A stretch of 23,005 nucleotides of DNA, taken from positions 1 to 23,005 of IMG/VR virus record IMGVR_UViG_3300013126_005788; one strand, 5' to 3'. A program made the position numbers and the translations under genes. The notes beneath the pieces were generated by a model. The model did not search any database, was not told the origin of the DNA, and saw only the letters and a program-made list of their open reading frames with translations. This DNA is from a virus. Positions 1,869 through 22,630 of this stretch are shown here, in pieces (within the stretch, counting starts at the first letter, position 1; every line of letters starts with the position of its first letter).

Positions 1869-2389
1869 TCGCTAAGCTCCCTGGCGATGGTCAGGCCGCA
1901 TGCCTGGGCCATGGCCTCAAGCCTGCCGATATTCTCATTGGCCGCTTTTTCAAACATATGGCGGCCTTCGAATCCTTCGGCTTTAATCTTGCGGCCAATC
2001 AGATATGCAACACGTTCTGCATCCTTGCCAGATAGGCCCAGTTTTTTGTTAACCCAGGGGATCAGCGGAGATACATATTTATCCCCTGGCACAGCTGAAG
2101 CGAGGCCTTTCCCCGGTCTGCGACCCTTTTCAATTACCTCGGCATATTTCTGGGCGCTCATAACGACACCTTTGACGATCGGAGTCCCTTTATTATAGAC
2201 CTGATCCTGTATGGATCCGAGCAGACCGCCCTGGGCACCAAAGACCCCCTGCGGCGTCCGTTTTTGTACTTCGGTAAGCAGAAACAGAGTGGCCTGAGTT
2301 ACAAAGCGATCAAGCCCGGCCTGAATAACCTTGGGCGCTGTTCCGTCAAGCAGTGCGCCCTGTGTGCTGACACTGATCTGGAGCTTCAT
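1865..2389 (-). CDS. HK97 gp10-like neck/tail-completion protein
   Basis: 174 residues. The central part, with KRTPQGVFGAQGGLLGSIQ then YAEVIEKGRRPG, has the pattern of HK97 gp10-like/minor capsid (lambda Z-like) proteins: an R/K-TP-x-G-x-L-x-S segment followed by Y-A-x-x-x-E-x-G. These act at the head-tail joint or tail completion. The ATG at 2389 overlaps the upstream stop as ATGA, and the stop overlaps the next ATG in the same way, so the three genes form a tightly coupled set. Confidence in the broad family is moderate; the exact role within the neck is inferred. Confidence 0.6.
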   Translation of the reverse strand: MKLQISVSTQGALLDGTAPKVIQAGLDRFVTQATLFLLTEVQKRTPQGVFGAQGGLLGSIQDQVYNKGTPIVKGVVMSAQKYAEVIEKGRRPGKGLASAVPGDKYVSPLIPWVNKKLGLSGKDAERVAYLIGRKIKAEGFEGRHMFEKAANENIGRLEAMAQACGLTIARELSE

Positions 2390-3039
2390 CGCCTGCGACC
2401 ATGTATCAAGCGGGGACGGGATGTGTCCGCTGCAGTTGCAATTACTGAAGCTGCGATGGTGGTATCTGTGTCTTTAATCCCGAGATGATGTTTGTACAGC
2501 CCCTCGAATGACTCTGCGAGGCGGCGGAATTCATCAGATTTGGAGCGATAATTGACAGAATCAGCCTGAATCAGGCTGTCACTTGTCTGACCGAAGGCAG
2601 CTGCCAGCTGCCGCAGACAGAGCGAGACGGCCAGATTGGCAACCGCTTCCAGATCCGCAGCCGGGAGTGTCAACTCGGAGTGCAGAAGGGAATACAGTAA
2701 TCTGACATTTTGACTTACTGCAGGTTTGATGGTGGAAAAACGGATAAATATTTCGGTCGGAGTCTGGTAGAAACGCCAGTCTCGCGGATCAATCAATGTC
2801 TCCGGGACTGCTCCGACGGGATACTCAATAGATTCAACAGCCGAAAAACCAGGACTCCAGCCAGGCGGCAGCGGGATGTCATAACTATTCTGACCCGGAA
2901 CATCCGCACAGGTAAGACGTGGCCGGTGTTTGCTGTAGCGTTTGATAGCTTCAGCGGCAGCTGATAAGAGATCATCCGGATCTGTCAACCGGCCGGAATC
3001 ATCTTTTACTTTGGCGCGTATGGAATCAATGAGTGGCAT
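2386..3039 (-). CDS. Head-tail connector (adaptor) protein
   Basis: 217 residues beginning MPLIDSIRAKVKDDSGRLTD, with a mainly helical N-terminus and C-terminal helices (FRRLAESFEGLYKHHLG). This composition and position, first after the capsid gene, fit head completion adaptors that dock under the portal. The N-terminal sense of the protein supports ATG 3039 as the start, yet the 20 bp upstream are pyrimidine-rich with no Shine-Dalgarno sequence. A TGTAAT hexamer lies 9 bp upstream, so the transcript may be leaderless (see findings). The adaptor identity is inferred from position; no single motif proves it. Confidence 0.5.
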   Translation of the reverse strand: MPLIDSIRAKVKDDSGRLTDPDDLLSAAAEAIKRYSKHRPRLTCADVPGQNSYDIPLPPGWSPGFSAVESIEYPVGAVPETLIDPRDWRFYQTPTEIFIRFSTIKPAVSQNVRLLYSLLHSELTLPAADLEAVANLAVSLCLRQLAAAFGQTSDSLIQADSVNYRSKSDEFRRLAESFEGLYKHHLGIKDTDTTIAASVIATAADTSRPRLIHGRRR

Positions 3040-3047
3040 GCAGCGAG

Positions 3048-3090
3048 ATTACAGGAGGGGCGGGGGGAAAGTATTTTTACCGGGTGAAAA
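3048..3090 (-). promoter_or_regulatory. Candidate activator-dependent late promoter 2 (head completion/tail operon)
   Basis: On the minus strand a 17-bp near-palindrome (3074-3090, plus-strand TTTTTACCGGGTGAAAA) is followed by a 20-bp C-rich spacer and TGTAAT (3053-3048, 5 of 6 matches to the -10 consensus). No -35 is seen. The palindrome centre (3082) to the start of the -10 is 29 bp, almost identical to the 10775-10818 copy. Mor/C of phage Mu bind dyads near -43 at promoters lacking a -35; that this phage's Mor-like protein binds here is inference. Confidence 0.5.
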
Positions 3091-3093
3091 CAA

Positions 3094-3139
3094 TTCGACT
3101 CCGCTCATGTACCAGGACGGTAACTAAAGCGGAGTCGAA
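3094..3139. repeat. Inverted repeat, TTCGACTCCGCT type, copy 2
   Basis: Arms TTCGACTCCGCT (3094-3105) and AGCGGAGTCGAA (3128-3139) are perfect 12-bp complements, sharing arm sequence with the copy at 1352-1394. It sits in the 167-bp gap between the capsid stop (3207) and the connector start (3039), just before the late promoter. On the minus strand the hairpin is followed by ATTGTTTT, so it could end transcription coming from the capsid operon. Confidence 0.8.
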
Positions 3140-3206
3140 GTTTCGGGTTTTTACTCCGTTTACAGCATGATGTCAACTCACAAACGCTTGCACACCAACA
3201 TTACGG

Positions 3207-10144: not shown

Positions 10145-10663
10145 TTATGCCCGTGCCAGCCAGCCGTGCAGGAATTTGCTTTTTTTCGGGTTGTGCAGGG
10201 CGATGTGGGTGTAATAGGCTTTGGCGGCGGCACGGCAGCCGGCCAGCAGCTCCACCGGATTTGCAGCGTTGATGGCGGCTTTGGTTTGTGGGCCGATAAT
10301 GCCGTCTTCATCAACGTGCAGCGCCCGCTGCATGAGTTTGTAGGCCGGGCGGATACCCATGTTGATGCCTTTGTCGAACAGCCAGTTAACCAGGTTCTGG
10401 TCGTTGATTTCGTCCATAACTGGCGTCCAGAAATTGCGTTTGTAGAAATCCTTGATGCGCCCCTGAAGATCGGCGTTCCGATCGAGGCATACCGGGAAAT
10501 CTTTCTGCTGTTTCAGGTGATCAACATCAGGCCAGCCATTCCACCCCGGCCAGTTGACGCGGCTGATACCGCGATAGGTTTCGCCGCCGCTGTCATCGGG
10601 ATCGTTGTTGTAGCCACCTTCAAATTTCATGGCTGCGGCAAAGGCAGGTTCGAATAAGGCCAT
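10145..10663 (-). CDS. Endolysin, glycoside hydrolase family 108
   Basis: 172 residues. The N-terminal motif FEGGYNNDPDDSGGETYRGIS carries the catalytic glutamate (E15) in the E-G-G-Y context of GH108 lysozyme-like muramidases. The C-terminal half (MQRALHVDEDGIIGPQTKAAINA) matches the short peptidoglycan-binding domain usual in this family. It cuts the glycan strand of peptidoglycan at lysis. There is no signal peptide, so it needs a holin to reach the wall. The ATG at 10663 follows CGGAGAACACA. It is the first gene of the late lysis-head transcript, about 105 bp downstream of the proposed start point. Confidence 0.9.
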   Translation of the reverse strand: MALFEPAFAAAMKFEGGYNNDPDDSGGETYRGISRVNWPGWNGWPDVDHLKQQKDFPVCLDRNADLQGRIKDFYKRNFWTPVMDEINDQNLVNWLFDKGINMGIRPAYKLMQRALHVDEDGIIGPQTKAAINAANPVELLAGCRAAAKAYYTHIALHNPKKSKFLHGWLARA

Positions 10664-10722: not shown

Positions 10723-10748
10723 AAAAAGCGGGGCGGGATCACCGCCCC
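10723..10748 (-). terminator. Intrinsic-terminator-like hairpin in the endolysin leader
   Basis: On the minus strand GGGGCGG (10748-10742), a 5-base loop, CCGCCCC (10736-10730), then GC and TTTTT (10727-10723). Stem and T-run are those of a factor-independent terminator. It lies between the proposed late start (about 10768) and the endolysin ATG (10663), so it would act as a leader attenuator, or as a second block on middle-operon transcripts. Confidence 0.6.
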
Positions 10749-10774
10749 AATTGCAAGGAGGTACTGTTGACGGG

Positions 10775-10818
10775 ACTATACGAAAGAAACGGAGGGGGGT
10801 CTTTTTACCGGGTAAAAA
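10775..10818 (-). promoter_or_regulatory. Candidate activator-dependent late promoter 1 (lysis/head operon)
   Basis: The 17-bp palindrome TTTTTACCGGGTAAAAA (10802-10818) has 8-bp arms around one central base. On the minus strand it is followed by a 21-bp spacer with a C-run and by TATAGT (10780-10775), a 5-of-6 match to the -10 consensus; no -35 is visible. With a start near 10768 the palindrome centre is at about -42, where Mu Mor/C dyads sit. A near copy with the same spacing lies at 3048-3090. Binding by the Mor-like protein (11549-11863) is inference. Confidence 0.55.
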
Positions 10819-10851
10819 AGAAAAGCCCCAATCCGGGTGGAAAGGGGCTTT
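10814..10851 (-). terminator. Rho-independent terminator ending the early/middle transcript
   Basis: On the minus strand AAAGCCCC (10851-10844), a 14-base loop and GGGGCTTT (10829-10822) are followed by a run of T broken by one C (to 10814). It lies downstream of the last middle gene (10939-11121) and just before the late promoter palindrome, whose edge shares the T-run. No gene was seen in 10852-10938. Confidence 0.8.
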
Positions 10852-10938
10852 GAAGTATTTTGTGCCTTATATCGTGAGAGGGGGGAATTTGTCAACGGCA
10901 TAACTCACGCAGCAGCGGACAAGCCGCTGTGCGTGGCG

Positions 10939-11548: not shown

Positions 11549-11863
11549 TTAAATAAGTTCTTCCTGTTTCCAGGCATGCTTTTCATTGTGATCATCCTTG
11601 ATGATCTTATATACGGTTTTCAGGGTCAGGCCGGTATCGAGCGCCAGGCGGCGCTGGTTGGCGCCGGAGAAATATGCCAGGATGTATGCCCGCTTGGCGG
11701 GGTAAAGCAGATGATGCACCTGCTTGAAGTAGAGCGGTACACCGGGGAACGCCTCAGCCAGTTTTACCGTGGCATCGATCCCGATCACAGAGATCACAAC
11801 CTGGTAATGCTCCGGCAGCTCATCGACCTGCAGGTAGTTCAGATATTTTGCATGATCACTCAT
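11549..11863 (-). CDS. mor: Mor/C-family transcription activator (middle/late regulator)
   Basis: 104 residues, close to the usual Mor size. The N-terminal half is a dimerisation-type region (IDATVKLAEAFPGVPLYF). The C-terminal helix-turn-helix is GANQRRLALDTGLTLKTVYK (about 67-86), the placement and sequence style of Mu Mor and C. These proteins bind a dyad just upstream of promoters that lack a -35 and recruit RNA polymerase. Only one such gene is visible, so it may perform the late switch alone, acting at the paired palindromes at 10802-10818 and 3074-3090 (inference). The ATG at 11863 overlaps the upstream stop (ATGA). Confidence 0.85.
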   Translation of the reverse strand: MSDHAKYLNYLQVDELPEHYQVVISVIGIDATVKLAEAFPGVPLYFKQVHHLLYPAKRAYILAYFSGANQRRLALDTGLTLKTVYKIIKDDHNEKHAWKQEELI

Positions 11864-12360
11864 CCCAGGCTCTCCAATATTGCGTTCAACGCTTCGGCTG
11901 ACCGGGCATGCGCCGCTTCATCAACCGCCTCAACATTCACCGTACCAGCCTGCGGCTTGACAATGCGCCGTGGTAGTCGTTTCAGCAGTTCTGCCGGTTG
12001 CGGCCAGCGCCGGCATTCACGGAAGAGCAGTTTGAATCCGGCAATGATCCGTTCACGATCCAGCTCCTCGGTCATACCTTCACCGATGATCTCCACCCAA
12101 TCCTCGGCAACCACTTCAATCAGATCGGCGGCCGGGGCATCCTGCATGCGGCGCGGAAACATCCGTTGAAAAGCGGCGTAGATCAGGAGGCGCAGCCAGT
12201 AATCCGGTGCAGATTCATGTTCATTGCGCCAGACGATCATTTTCTGGATGCCTTGCACTGTTTTCGGTATGTGCAAACCACCTGGGCCTGAACGGGCAGG
12301 GTAGCCCTGTACGGTAAGCTGTACGCCGGTAGCTGAGATTATATTCGTATTCTGTGTCAT
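11860..12360 (-). CDS. Unknown early/middle protein (166 aa)
   Basis: 166 residues. After a variable N-terminus (about 1-30) it has a helical region with IVWRNEHESAPDYWLRLLIY and then FKLLFRECRRWPQPAELLKR. The latter W-P-x-P-x-x-L-L pattern recurs in phage proteins associated with replication loading, but I cannot name a family. There is no signal peptide or membrane segment. It overlaps both neighbours by ATGA, tying its expression to the Mor-like gene that follows. Function not assigned. Confidence 0.65.
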   Translation of the reverse strand: MTQNTNIISATGVQLTVQGYPARSGPGGLHIPKTVQGIQKMIVWRNEHESAPDYWLRLLIYAAFQRMFPRRMQDAPAADLIEVVAEDWVEIIGEGMTEELDRERIIAGFKLLFRECRRWPQPAELLKRLPRRIVKPQAGTVNVEAVDEAAHARSAEALNAILESLG

Positions 12361-12545
12361 CGGAGTGAGCTCACATATGCATCAATCCATGCCTGGCGAT
12401 CGTTGATCAGCTTTTCCTCCAGCGCAGCGTGCAGAAACTCCTGCACGCTGCGTCCGGAAAGTGCTTTTTCAACGGAGGCTTTTGTTTCGTCGCTGATACG
12501 GCAGCTGATGATGTTGTAACGAGGATGTTGTTTCATGCGTCCCAT
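12357..12545 (-). CDS. Small ribbon-helix-helix-like protein (62 aa)
   Basis: 62 residues, MGRMKQHPRYNIISCRISDE..., with a short strand (NIISCRIS) followed by two helices (ETKASVEKAL and VQEFLHAALEEKL), the order of ribbon-helix-helix DNA-binding proteins. I chose ATG 12545 because GGAGAGG lies 9 bp upstream and the upstream gene stops 1 bp before it; an in-frame reading from 12605 would lie within that gene. It may be a small regulator of the early-to-middle switch. The fold assignment is by eye. Confidence 0.55.
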   Translation of the reverse strand: MGRMKQHPRYNIISCRISDETKASVEKALSGRSVQEFLHAALEEKLINDRQAWIDAYVSSLR

Positions 12546-12546
12546 A

Positions 12547-12759
12547 TCAGGCTGCCTCTCCGGCTGACTGCTGTTTTGCGACATGGTCAACCGCAAATTC
12601 AACATCGGGATTACCGGCGGCAGCCGATATCATCAGCCGTTCAAACTGGGCCAGCCGTGCCAGCTGCCGTTTGATATCGTCATAATCACGGGTAAAGAGT
12701 ACGGTCAGGCCATGATCATTGAGGGTTCGTTGTAATTCGTCACGTTTTTGAAGAGTCAT
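12547..12759 (-). CDS. Small protein of unknown function (70 aa)
   Basis: 70 residues, MTLQKRDELQRTLNDHGLTV..., mostly helical and charged. I chose ATG 12759 because AAAGGA lies 7 bp upstream and the longer in-frame reading (to 12795) begins inside the hairpin at 12786-12823. It is followed at 1 bp by the ribbon-helix-helix-like gene. The family is unrecognised. Confidence 0.55.
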   Translation of the reverse strand: MTLQKRDELQRTLNDHGLTVLFTRDYDDIKRQLARLAQFERLMISAAAGNPDVEFAVDHVAKQQSAGEAA

Positions 12760-18635: not shown

Positions 18636-19073
18636 CTACCTCCGTAATTTGCATTCATTTTCCAGCAACGCTATTTCCTGATCCAGCTGCTGCCGCTGTT
18701 GTATTTTTTTGGCCAATATCATGAACGGCTTTTCGTTGGCCGTCAGAATGCCCGCCCCCAGCTCCTCAAGGCCTATTTCCATGGGATCAAAACGCCCGGC
18801 CAGTTTGCAGGAGGCAATGACCTGGATCATGGTTGGCTGATACTGATCATCGCTGGAAAGGATTTTGTCGAACACTGATCCTCTGACTTCAATGCCGGTG
18901 GCCTCGCTGATCATGGCGGCCACCAAGGCCCGGTTGCGCGGGTGGAGCATTCTGGACAGGCTCTGTTTGATATTGAGGCTCAGGTGTTTCAGGCAACCCG
19001 GCATCAATTCGCTATCCAACAGGCTCATTTGTCCGGACATACTTTTATCTATTTTGCTGTGTTGATTGGACAT
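18636..19073 (-). CDS. Early protein of unknown function (145 aa)
   Basis: 145 residues, MSNQHSKIDKSMSGQMSLLD..., mostly helical. The middle (LHPRNRALVAAMISEATGIE) and IGLEELGAGILTANEKPFMI are reminiscent of phage regulatory CII-like or toxin/antitoxin-like helical proteins, without a clear match. The C-terminus is a Gln/Glu-rich helix (KKIQQRQQLDQEIALLENEC). The ATG at 19073 follows GAGGGG. It is the first minus-strand gene after the plus-strand insert 19141-19638 and sits beside a dyad and -10-like hexamers. Confidence 0.6.
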   Translation of the reverse strand: MSNQHSKIDKSMSGQMSLLDSELMPGCLKHLSLNIKQSLSRMLHPRNRALVAAMISEATGIEVRGSVFDKILSSDDQYQPTMIQVIASCKLAGRFDPMEIGLEELGAGILTANEKPFMILAKKIQQRQQLDQEIALLENECKLRR

Positions 19074-19638: not shown

Positions 19639-19701
19639 AAGTATTCCAAGGTCTGCAGCGATCTCCAGGGCCTCGGCGGTGGGCAAATTCTTTTTCTTCA
19701 T
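19531..19701 (-). CDS. Small early ORF coupled to the Ner-like gene (56 aa)
   Basis: 56 residues, MKKKNLPTAEALEIAADLGI..., with an N-terminal basic stretch and an acidic middle (SSDDTPDAPLDNVQIVEA). The ATG at 19701 overlaps the TGA of the Ner-like gene (ATGA) behind GGAGGCAGC, which is good evidence of translation. Its 3' two-thirds run antisense through the end of the plus-strand gene (19531-19638), so both ORFs being real would be unusual. Unknown function. Confidence 0.5.
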   Translation of the reverse strand: MKKKNLPTAEALEIAADLGILSVRFSLSSDDTPDAPLDNVQIVEASAKIYHQIDRN

Positions 19702-19925
19702 GCTGCCTCCAGGTATTTAGTTGGTGTGTCGGGCCAAAAATATTGAACCGGAAGTCCGCACGCTTGTGCTGTCACCTGACGGATCCGGTAGCCTTTTTCC
19801 TGGTTACTGAGTACCCGGTATAGTCGCTGCCGCGATACGCCGGCGGTTTTGGCCAGGGCGGCATTGGTAATGCGGCGCTTGACCAATTCTCCACGCACGA
19901 AAGAGTAGAACTCTTCTGATGACAT
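19698..19925 (-). CDS. Ner/Cro-like HTH early regulator (75 aa)
   Basis: 75 residues from ATG 19925, chosen because GAGGAGGTAACCGCA precedes it; an in-frame ATG at 19956 with a weaker site would add ten residues. The fold is a lambda-repressor-type helix-turn-helix, ITNAALAKTAGVSRQRLYRV (about 19-38), followed by EKGYRIRQVTAQACGLPVQY. It is the first gene of the minus-strand operon, divergent from the repressor, in the position of Mu ner, which dampens early and repressor promoters. Target and mechanism are inferred from place and size. Confidence 0.75.
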   Translation of the reverse strand: MSSEEFYSFVRGELVKRRITNAALAKTAGVSRQRLYRVLSNQEKGYRIRQVTAQACGLPVQYFWPDTPTKYLEAA

Positions 19926-20035
19926 TGCGGTTACCTCCTCTTTTTTTTGCGTCATGGGGTTGACCTTTTGAAAGTTGTTTTGTGTAACGTGATGGATAAC
20001 AAATAAACTCATTTAAGGACAAAATCAACAAAAAA
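19926..20035. promoter_or_regulatory. Repressor/early divergent control region
   Basis: On plus, TTGACC (19960-19965), 17 bp, then TGTAAC (19983-19988) is a plausible repressor promoter. On minus, TTGTCC (20022-20017), 17 bp, then TTATCC (19999-19994) is a weaker candidate for the early promoter. GTTGTTTTGT (19974-19983) and ACAAAATCAAC (20019-20029) are inverted near-copies that could be operator half sites. The region is A+T-rich, as in Mu early operators. Confidence 0.5.
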
Positions 20036-20635
20036 ATGAACTCAATTGGTGACAGACTAAAAATAGTTATGGGTAGCATGTCTGGTCGCAAATTTGCTTC
20101 TGCGCTAGATTTAAGCTCTACCACTGTGAATCAGTATTTAAATGGCAGAACCCCGCCAGCTGATTTTATTGTCCTCGTTTGCGAACGTTTCCCGAATGTT
20201 GACCCATGGTGGTTAATGACCGGGCAAGGAAAAGCGCCCGAATCAAAGCCAATGGATCCTCAAATTATGGAGGTCGTATCGATCATGGAACGCCTGGACG
20301 ACAAGGGAAAGGCTGATTTGGTGCGAGTTGCCGAGAAGGAAGAGCTGCTGGCGGATATAAAGAAATCGCGGGGACTGAAGCCGATTGGTGAGGCGGGAGT
20401 TATCGGGGTGAATCTGTTGATCCAACTTCTGCTGCCAACAGAGTTGATCCTAGTTGCTGTCGGTTACGGTTGGATTAATGGGGATACGGCATGGGAGCTC
20501 TTGTCCTGGAACAAATACTATTGGGCTTTGGCACTGCCGGCAGTATTTATATTTCCTGTTCAGGCCATACGCTGGCTGAAGCGTAGAGAATCATCTGTGG
20601 TTATCTTCAAATCGCGACGTTTTGGGCGCTGGTGA
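20036..20635 (+). CDS. HTH repressor with two C-terminal membrane segments
   Basis: 199 residues. Residues 4-65 are a CI-type DNA-binding domain: SGRKFASALDLSSTTVNQYL (16-35), then NGRTPPADFIVLVCERFPNV and WWLMTGQG. Residues 75-112 form a helical linker (MERLDDKGKADLVRVAEKEE). There is no LexA/S24 cleavage domain; residues 121-146 and 161-179 are hydrophobic and look membrane-spanning, with a basic end (LKRRE and FKSRRFGRW). The start ATG 20036 has no well-placed ribosome site (AAGGA lies 16 bp upstream). Divergent placement opposite the Ner-like gene supports a repressor role; membrane attachment is inferred from the sequence and would be unusual. Confidence 0.7.
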   Translation: MNSIGDRLKIVMGSMSGRKFASALDLSSTTVNQYLNGRTPPADFIVLVCERFPNVDPWWLMTGQGKAPESKPMDPQIMEVVSIMERLDDKGKADLVRVAEKEELLADIKKSRGLKPIGEAGVIGVNLLIQLLLPTELILVAVGYGWINGDTAWELLSWNKYYWALALPAVFIFPVQAIRWLKRRESSVVIFKSRRFGRW

Positions 20636-20686
20636 TGTGATGTGGTGAGGCTGTGGATACAATTAATATAGGGGGTGATTCAAAAT

Positions 20687-22630
20687 ATGGCTTACCGAGT
20701 AATGTGGGAAACTGAAGTGCGGCATGAAGGCTTAGGAAAGTATCGCCATATACGTGGATCAGAACAATATGTAGTTGAACAAAAAGCTGCGGCCCAGAAA
20801 CTTCAATGGGAAGAACAATGGCAACGGAAACAGGAAATAGATCGCCGCGGCAAAGAAAGGGAACGGGCTGCTAATCAAAAAATTTCGGAACGAGAACAGA
20901 ATGCTTTAGAGAAAGCACGCCAGAAAGAAGAATCTCAGCGCTATAAGGACGAAAGAAAGCAAGAAGCTTTAAACCGTGATAAGGAAGCCAAAGACGCAAT
21001 TGATACGTTAAAAAATATACTCAATCATACACTCAACGTAAACGATGCTATCGACTGGGAAAAGCTCAAGGATACGTCAAAATTCATCGAACCTCTTCCG
21101 AAATTAGATCTTCCGCCATGTCCGGCAAACCAGCCAATTCCAATTGCTCCGGTACCAAAGATTGTCCCCATGAAGCCAAGTTCTTCGGCCAGAGATAAAT
21201 CTCCAACAAAAAGTTTTGCCAAATATCAGCCGGTTTTTGGTTTTTTTGACAAGATCATACCTTCATTTAAAGCAAAAAAGATTGCAGCAGCTGAAGCTTT
21301 GTTCTCTCAAGATTATACTGCCTGGGAGACAGAATGCTTCAAACTTGATGAGTCTGATTCTGCAGAGTTGAAACGGTGGGAGGAAAGTAAAAACAGTATT
21401 GATATACGAAATGCTGCACTTTTGGCTGAATGGGAGCGAAATGTTGAGAGAACAAAAATTGAGAATACAAACAGAAAGTCATGGTGGGAAAAGAGCTGTG
21501 AACAGGCCCGGTTAAAGCACGCTGAAGAGGTAAAGCAATGGGAGTTACGTAAGGAAAAGTTTATCGAAAAACAGGCTGCTATTAATTCTGTAATTGATAA
21601 AAACCGAGAAAACTATTTGTCAAATGAACAGGGTGCAATTTCTGATTATTGTGATTCTGTTCTGTCAAACTCTATCTATCCAGACTATTTTCCCAATGAG
21701 TGGGATCTGGATTACAACGCCGACACAAAAAACCTGATTGTTGAATATGCGTTACCAGCTCCTGAATCACTCCCGACTTTGAAGGATATCCAGTACGTGC
21801 AAACAAAGGATGACTTCAAGGAAAGTTATCTGTCTGAAAAAGAATCAGAATCCATTTATGACAGCCTGCTATACCAGATTGCACTGCGCACCATTCATGA
21901 ATTATTTGAAGCTGATACCGCTAATGCAGTAGATACCATTGCATTTAACGGTATAGTTACTGCCCTGGATAAAACTACAGGAAATAAAGTCACTGCCTGT
22001 GTCCTTTCTCTGATGACCCGCAAAGAACAATTTTTACAAATTAATCTCGCAAATATTGAACCTAAGGCATGCTTCAAGAGCCTGAAAGGTGTCGCTGCCA
22101 CAAAACTTATTGGGATTACTCCTGTATCGCCTGTTATGGCAATTGACAGAAATGACCGCCGTTTTGTTGAAGGTTATGGAGTTGCTGATTCTTTAAATGA
22201 AGGTACTAATCTGGCGACTATGGATTGGGAAGATTTTGAGCACCTGATAAGAGAGGTGTTTGAACAGGAATTTGCAACGAGCGGTGGCGAAGTGAAAGTA
22301 ACTCAGGCAAGCCGGGACGGCGGGGTTGATGCGATTGCATTTGATCCTGATCCAATCAGAGGCGGCAAAATCGTTATACAGGCAAAACGTTATACAAATG
22401 TGGTAGGAGTTTCGGCCGTCAGGGATCTATACGGTACTGTTATTAACGAGGGAGCTACCAAAGGTATTTTAGTTACTACTGCTAATTATGGGCCTGATGC
22501 ATACGAATTCGCAAAAGGAAAACCGCTATCTCTGCTGACGGGTGCGAACCTTTTACATTTGCTCGAAAAACATGGGCACCAAGCCCGTATTAATATAAAT
22601 GAAGCTAAGCAATCCTTTCAAAATAAATAG
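20687..22630 (+). CDS. Long coiled-coil protein with C-terminal Mrr-type nuclease domain
   Basis: 647 residues from ATG 20687; GGGGGTGAT, near-complementary to the 16S 3' end, lies 7 bp upstream, so an in-frame GTG at 20675 inside that site is not used. Residues about 25-105 are highly charged coiled coil, 130-165 Pro-rich, and about 190-310 charged helix with repeated Trp-Glu pairs (WERNVE, WWEKSCE). Residues 512-620 are an Mrr_cat/PD-(D/E)xK restriction domain: WEDFEHLIREVFEQ, then SRDGGVDAIA (D544, D548), IVIQAKRY (Q565, K567) and GILVTTANYG. Mrr-family enzymes cut modified or foreign DNA. A+T-rich coding unlike the transposition genes suggests recent acquisition. It may act in defence or superinfection control; this is inference. 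Confidence 0.75.
   Translation: MAYRVMWETEVRHEGLGKYRHIRGSEQYVVEQKAAAQKLQWEEQWQRKQEIDRRGKERERAANQKISEREQNALEKARQKEESQRYKDERKQEALNRDKEAKDAIDTLKNILNHTLNVNDAIDWEKLKDTSKFIEPLPKLDLPPCPANQPIPIAPVPKIVPMKPSSSARDKSPTKSFAKYQPVFGFFDKIIPSFKAKKIAAAEALFSQDYTAWETECFKLDESDSAELKRWEESKNSIDIRNAALLAEWERNVERTKIENTNRKSWWEKSCEQARLKHAEEVKQWELRKEKFIEKQAAINSVIDKNRENYLSNEQGAISDYCDSVLSNSIYPDYFPNEWDLDYNADTKNLIVEYALPAPESLPTLKDIQYVQTKDDFKESYLSEKESESIYDSLLYQIALRTIHELFEADTANAVDTIAFNGIVTALDKTTGNKVTACVLSLMTRKEQFLQINLANIEPKACFKSLKGVAATKLIGITPVSPVMAIDRNDRRFVEGYGVADSLNEGTNLATMDWEDFEHLIREVFEQEFATSGGEVKVTQASRDGGVDAIAFDPDPIRGGKIVIQAKRYTNVVGVSAVRDLYGTVINEGATKGILVTTANYGPDAYEFAKGKPLSLLTGANLLHLLEKHGHQARININEAKQSFQNK

Follow-up and report, generated by a model that had tools for sequence, protein, structure and literature searches.

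A predicted single-activator late regulon with two Mor-type promoters in a Mu-like prophage and its relatives

Two nearly identical palindromes in a prophage region are very likely the binding sites of one dimeric Mor-family protein (encoded at 11549–11863, minus strand) and mark two Mor-dependent late promoters, forming a late regulon with a single activator. The window, that is, the whole stretch of DNA that was analysed, comprises 23,005 nucleotides (positions 1 to 23,005 of IMG/VR record IMGVR_UViG_3300013126_005788). Its first base is also the first of contig C15 and lies within the prophage, and therefore the far tail genes and the rest of the tail operon are out of view. We infer binding, activation, start points and timing from homology and geometry. 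The promoter module would be a variant of the Mor/C-activated promoters already known from Mu, and three conserved additions were brought to light beyond the first-pass annotation of this DNA: a promoter-terminator unit upstream of each palindrome, an adaptor and tail mRNA predicted to be leaderless, and a structured lysis leader.

The palindrome at 10802–10818 (TTTTTACCGGGTAAAAA; TTTTTACCCGGTAAAAA on the minus strand; dyad 1) is perfect, with two 8-bp arms around one central base, and the one at 3074–3090 (TTTTCACCCGGTAAAAA on the minus strand; dyad 2) differs from it by one base. When up to 3 mismatches were allowed, these were the only two matches in the window, while dinucleotide shuffles gave 0.01 on expectation and none of 100 contained two. 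Perfect palindromes with 8-bp arms and loops up to 6 are not rare (5 in the window), and it is the repeated one that is rare. A pattern search of the whole 3.58 Mb assembly (3,576,562 bases) found the palindrome only at these two places.

On the minus strand, dyad 1 is followed by a C-rich spacer of 21 bp (10781–10801) and the -10 hexamer TATAGT (10780–10775), and dyad 2 by a C-rich spacer of 20 bp (3054–3073) and the hexamer TGTAAT (3053–3048). The distance from dyad centre to the first base of the -10 is 30 bp and 29 bp, respectively. Both sites were scanned for a sigma-70 pair of hexamers; neither reached 9 of 12 consensus positions, and no -35 was present. With the first -10 base set as -12, the dyad centres lie at about -42 and -41, and the first promoter is predicted to start near 10768. 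All late genes of the window are on the minus strand. Site 1 precedes the endolysin gene (10145–10663; GH108 plus peptidoglycan-binding), the first gene of a late operon in which small genes, terminase, portal and capsid genes follow, and site 2 precedes an SU10-type head-tail adaptor gene (2386–3039), after which come the tail genes. These measurements bear out what the first-pass annotation had described: a palindrome with a one-change copy and no further intact copy in the window, C-rich spacers without a -35, 5-of-6 -10 hexamers at 30 and 29 bp, a dyad near -42 as in the Mu Mor/C geometry, and one copy before lysis-to-capsid genes and the other before head-completion and tail genes.

Mor/C activators are DNA-binding dimers that contact the C-terminal domains of the alpha and sigma subunits of RNA polymerase. 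The 104-aa product of 11549–11863, earlier suspected to be Mor-like, belongs to the Mor family according to Pfam, PHROGs, profile comparison and predicted fold. It scores 31.9 bits against PF08765 (cut-off 24.9), close to the 33.8 and 34.3 bits of the Mor proteins in relatives L076 and L016, and PHROGs assigns it to the late transcriptional activators. In profile comparison by hhalign, the E-values are 6e-6 for Mu Mor and 4e-4 for Mu C. The AlphaFold2 model has a mean pLDDT of 83, and the six top PDB matches found by Foldseek are Mu C (9l0x) and Mu Mor (1rr7, 9l0y), with probabilities from 0.99 to 0.66 and E-values of 0.06 or weaker; the model is thus consistent with a C-terminal helix-turn-helix and the overall Mor/C fold. 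A profile search of PDB sequences with the Mor protein returned nothing at 0.01, whereas the fold search did find matches. This protein is the only Mor-family match in the genome. A second Mor/C paralogue (C-like protein) was sought in the genome and none was found, which does not fit the two-tier Mor-then-C cascade of Mu.

In Mu, the binding element of the Mor dimer is 16 bp long, contains two 5-bp repeats, is centred at -43.5 and takes the place of the -35 (PMC4390567, PMC4287176). Measured by the same ruler, the dyad centre of Mu Pm is 30.0 bp from its -10, and since this distance is the same as here, the working principle is very probably the same. Both sites of the window likewise have a dyad about 30 bp before a recognisable -10 without a functional -35. 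Mu Pm shares with the present module a Mor-family activator encoded just upstream, a terminator-like hairpin just before the promoter, and a dyad 30 bp from a -10 of 5 of 6 or weaker, with no -35 (PMC4390567, PMC4287176). It differs in that the Mu dyad is part of the hairpin itself (AGCCGGTTAATCCGGCT), while here the dyad lies just past the hairpin, and in that no upstream promoter-like sequence (P1, see below) precedes Pm (best 7/11). Furthermore, what Mor drives in Mu is a middle operon that includes C, without direct action on the structural genes. The late promoters of Mu are served by C, a relative of Mor, and Pm by Mor itself (PMC4461284). The C system, with one activator for several late promoters (Plys, PI, PP and Pmom) including those of lysis and head/tail genes (PMC4461284), is similar in this respect, but the count here is one Mor-family protein and two promoters, and the genome shows no further C-like protein; the late promoters appear to be under the direct control of this one protein. 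Bacillus phage BalMu-1 is also Mu-like, with GemA, then a Mor-family protein (33% identity), then lysis-side genes, and a comparable dyad/-10 module could not be recognised downstream of its Mor gene. In the literature searched, which left out most subscription journals, no such regulon outside Mu is described. Most work on the Mu Mor/C switch has been done in a single coliphage, and the present case would extend the switch to a lineage of Mu-like phages whose hosts are of Geobacter type or related.

The same layout of dyad and -10 was observed in about 20 related phages, with 18 lysis-side sites next to a Mor-family gene and adaptor-side sites in 6 phages. Apart from the window, 17 phages have a dyad 28–31 bp from a -10 downstream of their Mor-family gene, and 5 have one ahead of the adaptor gene. 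For the Mor loci, a search of viral contigs with the window Mor as a single protein found nothing, while an alignment query found 17 loci. In the nearest relative, G001 (L015), whose Mor is 68% identical, endolysin and adaptor genes are preceded by TTTTCATCCTGCGAAAA and TTTTCATCCAGCGAACA, which lie 30 and 29 bp from TATAGT and TGTAAT, respectively. The adaptor-side module is also found in L012, L013, L027 (plus L028, L029) and L031, and the module 3' of Mor in L076, L124, L125, L126, L127, L169, L017, L020, L132–L134 and L136–L140. The hexamer TATAGT of the first promoter is identical in G001, L124, L125, L126 and L127.

Among 24 modules, mean symmetry is maximal at 28–31 bp from the -10, with 3.9 of 8 pairs at 29.0 bp versus 1.8 at other positions. 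With the best centre taken for each module, the mean is 5.42, whereas random placement gives 3.90 (sd 0.20) and at most 4.67 in 2000 draws. This is supporting and not independent evidence because the -10 anchors and half-site registers were in part set by eye while the dyad was visible, and the related phages are not independent of one another. Some dyads are weak, with 3–4 of 8 pairs (G001 adaptor side, L017, L134, L138, L139, L140). The second site was not found in several relatives, whose contigs were partly read. In more distant relatives (L011, L030 and others) the module is absent and a normal ribosome site precedes the adaptor gene, and no clear module was seen at the distant Mor loci L141–L158, L170–L171 and L019. 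DNA patterns were less productive: the one from the lysis-side downstream box gave only two matches, both unrelated, and the one for the adaptor side gave 50, mostly by chance. No match to the G001 tape-measure gene was seen in this genome. The search of related Mu-like prophages that the first-pass annotation had suggested came out in favour of its interpretation, with one correction: position, symmetry and the outer T/A arms are kept, but the palindrome sequence itself varies with the Mor protein. Conservation thus concerns the geometry and the within-phage identity of the sites, not the palindrome sequence. Genome G066 carries two almost identical Mor regions, L020 and L021, on separate contigs; their dyad is the same, and they may be copies of a single transposing phage. 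In G001 and G064, clusters of the palindrome ACGAAATTCGT (L004 763–815, L006 713–729) lie inside a gene between Mor and the lysis genes and are unrelated to the dyads.

Dyad sequences differ between phages while agreeing within a phage (0–2 mismatches of 17). Lysis-side and adaptor-side dyads show 1 mismatch in the window, 2 in G001 and 0 for L126/L013; the dyads of L112 and L031, two contigs from one metagenome sample, differ at 1 position. Moreover, the half-site classes follow the recognition helix of Mor: TTTTTA occurs with TLKTV (window), TTTTC(A/C/G) with the PLxTV type, TTTTTG with SLERV, and TT(T/A/G)TGC with SIREV. The correlation between half-site distance and recognition-helix distance is r = 0.68, and after correction for the rest of the protein a partial r of 0.37 remains (permutation p = 0.001), but within the closest clade by itself the correlation is not significant (exact p = 0.23). 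The roughly 20 natural activator-site pairs are a source for reading the recognition code. This co-variation also bears on an improbable alternative, in which the palindromes would be operators, for example of the prophage repressor, that hold the late genes off while another activator works at the late promoters. Palindromes of this kind often serve repressors, and the window does encode Cro/C1-type helix-turn-helix proteins (19698–20012 and 20036–20635). However, no copies of the dyad were found near the repressor genes, the site sequence varies together with the recognition helix of Mor, and a dyad at -41/-42 before a -10 without a -35 is in the classical position of an activator, not one that blocks the start.

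Every dyad site is preceded by an intrinsic terminator, and the terminator in turn by a promoter-like sequence of the form TTGACA-16/18-TAYAAR (P1). On the minus strand at site 1, the terminator is directly upstream of the dyad (10822–10851; fold -18.8 kcal/mol, z -5.4), is kept in relatives, and its T-tract extends into the left arm of dyad 1; P1 is TTGACA-18-TATAAG (10866–10895), recognised by comparison with relatives and with a null. At site 2, also on the minus strand, a terminator-like hairpin (3094–3139; -26.7 kcal/mol, z -5.2) is preceded by TTGACA-17-TAAAAA (3148–3176), recognised by module comparison. P1 scores at least 9/11 in 23 of the 24 modules, and random 150-bp stretches of the same phages reach this score in 2.7% and at least 10/11 in 0.5%. 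The distance from the P1 -10 to the late -10 is mostly 83–102 bp, often 91–95 bp, and none of 21 tallied P1 -10 hexamers ends in T.

The late genes of lambda are headed by a promoter with an intrinsic terminator close behind it (PR'-tR'), and the order of P1 and terminator before late genes is shared with this arrangement. The present module differs in that a second, dyad-dependent -10 lies past the terminator, and no Q-like factor was found. One could take P1 (TTGACA-17-TAYAAR) as the true late promoter, with control by antitermination at the adjoining terminator as in lambda, and with dyad and second -10 as a loading or pausing site. P1 is indeed the most constant element of the modules (at least 10/11 in 20 of 24), with an intrinsic terminator within about 100 bp. 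We consider this very improbable, as it leaves unexplained the conserved -10, the C-rich spacer, the 28–31 bp geometry and the adaptor ATG 8–9 nt past the late -10 in 6 of 6 phages, and no candidate for an antiterminator was found. Lysis and adaptor modules resemble each other in their terminator and P1 parts, both within and between phages, which would also suit shared repeats without a regulatory role, such as an intergenic 130-bp duplication or a by-product of the terminators. Such an origin has hardly any likelihood, because a passive duplicate would not keep its symmetry and its spacing to the -10 while diverging, as the dyads do between phages.

Under the single-activator reading, the P1-terminator unit before each dyad is most simply an insulator that excludes prophage and early transcription from the late operons, and a further gating role is possible. 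In one specific form of gating, which we hold to be rather unlikely, the TTGACA promoter about 91 bp upstream, with its -10 never ending in T, would fire short transcripts that end in the left arm of the Mor dyad, and polymerase leaving there would compete with, or later feed, the activator-bound promoter. Combined with an attenuator leader on the lysis mRNA that contains ACCUCCUU and with a tail mRNA lacking a leader, such gating would determine when lysis occurs and how head and tail production are balanced, and, if true, it would be control of a kind not described for Mu.

From the gene order MuA, MuB, GemA and then Mor, Mor would be expressed early, and the early transcript would be halted at the terminator beside dyad 1. 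Accumulated Mor may then occupy both dyads near -41/-42, substitute for the missing -35 contact and recruit host sigma-70 RNA polymerase to the neighbouring -10. Transcription from late promoter 1 would cover the operon of lysis, terminase, portal and capsid genes, and the adaptor and tail genes would be read from late promoter 2 as an mRNA with little or no leader.

The prediction for the tail mRNA comes from the adaptor start. The ATG is 8 nt past the -10 in the window, protein homology begins at the first residues, and the distance is 8–9 nt in all 6 adaptor modules, in which the DNA at the position expected for a ribosome site is C-rich; therefore a leader of 0–3 nt is predicted. A leaderless mRNA has a start codon no more than about 3 nt from its 5' end and has no Shine-Dalgarno sequence, and the adaptor and tail mRNA is a candidate for this class.

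The predicted lysis transcript begins with a short leader containing a conserved ACCUCCUU box, followed by a terminator-like hairpin. The ACCTCCTT box (10755–10762, minus strand; anti-Shine-Dalgarno-like) lies near the 5' end of this transcript and is kept in G001, L076, L124 and L126, with ACCTCTTTT instead in L125. Folding predicts a GC-rich hairpin plus T-tract in the leader, downstream of late promoter 1 and ahead of the endolysin gene (10724–10749, minus strand); L076, L124 and L126 have it too, and the forms of G001 and L125 are weaker. In another clade its place is taken by a long stem, which in L137 covers the lysis ribosome site. That the leader always hides this site was not upheld, since pairing is strong in L137, partial in the window and L124, and little in G001, L076, L125 and L126. 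The idea of TACCTCCTT as the ribosome site of an antisense ORF was dropped, as no conserved ORF exists on the reverse strand of the window, G001 or L076. No Rfam family was detected in the window, L076 or L015. For the host -10, shuffled -35 sequences gave as many matches in a host sample that is too small to define it, and hexamers TATACA/TATAGA lie upstream of 2 of 6 host tRNA genes.

A second conserved stretch before the endolysin gene, GACGGCAGCCTCCGTGATCCTGCCCGAG, is found in L015 (about 18700–18850), L076 (about 500–700) and the lysis leaders of L127 and L140; it is probably a structured RNA element and is absent from the window. Upstream of the endolysin gene, L015, L017, L020 and L140 have a common leader element, GCCGACACCAGGC-hairpin-CCGGTCCAT, in otherwise divergent phages. 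Elsewhere in the window, a perfect 12-bp inverted repeat with a 6-bp loop (12423–12452) lies within the small gene 12357–12605. A 651-aa protein (20675–22630, plus strand), whose C-terminal part resembles an Mrr-type restriction endonuclease by eye, adjoins the repressor gene at the left end of the prophage and is possibly defence cargo.
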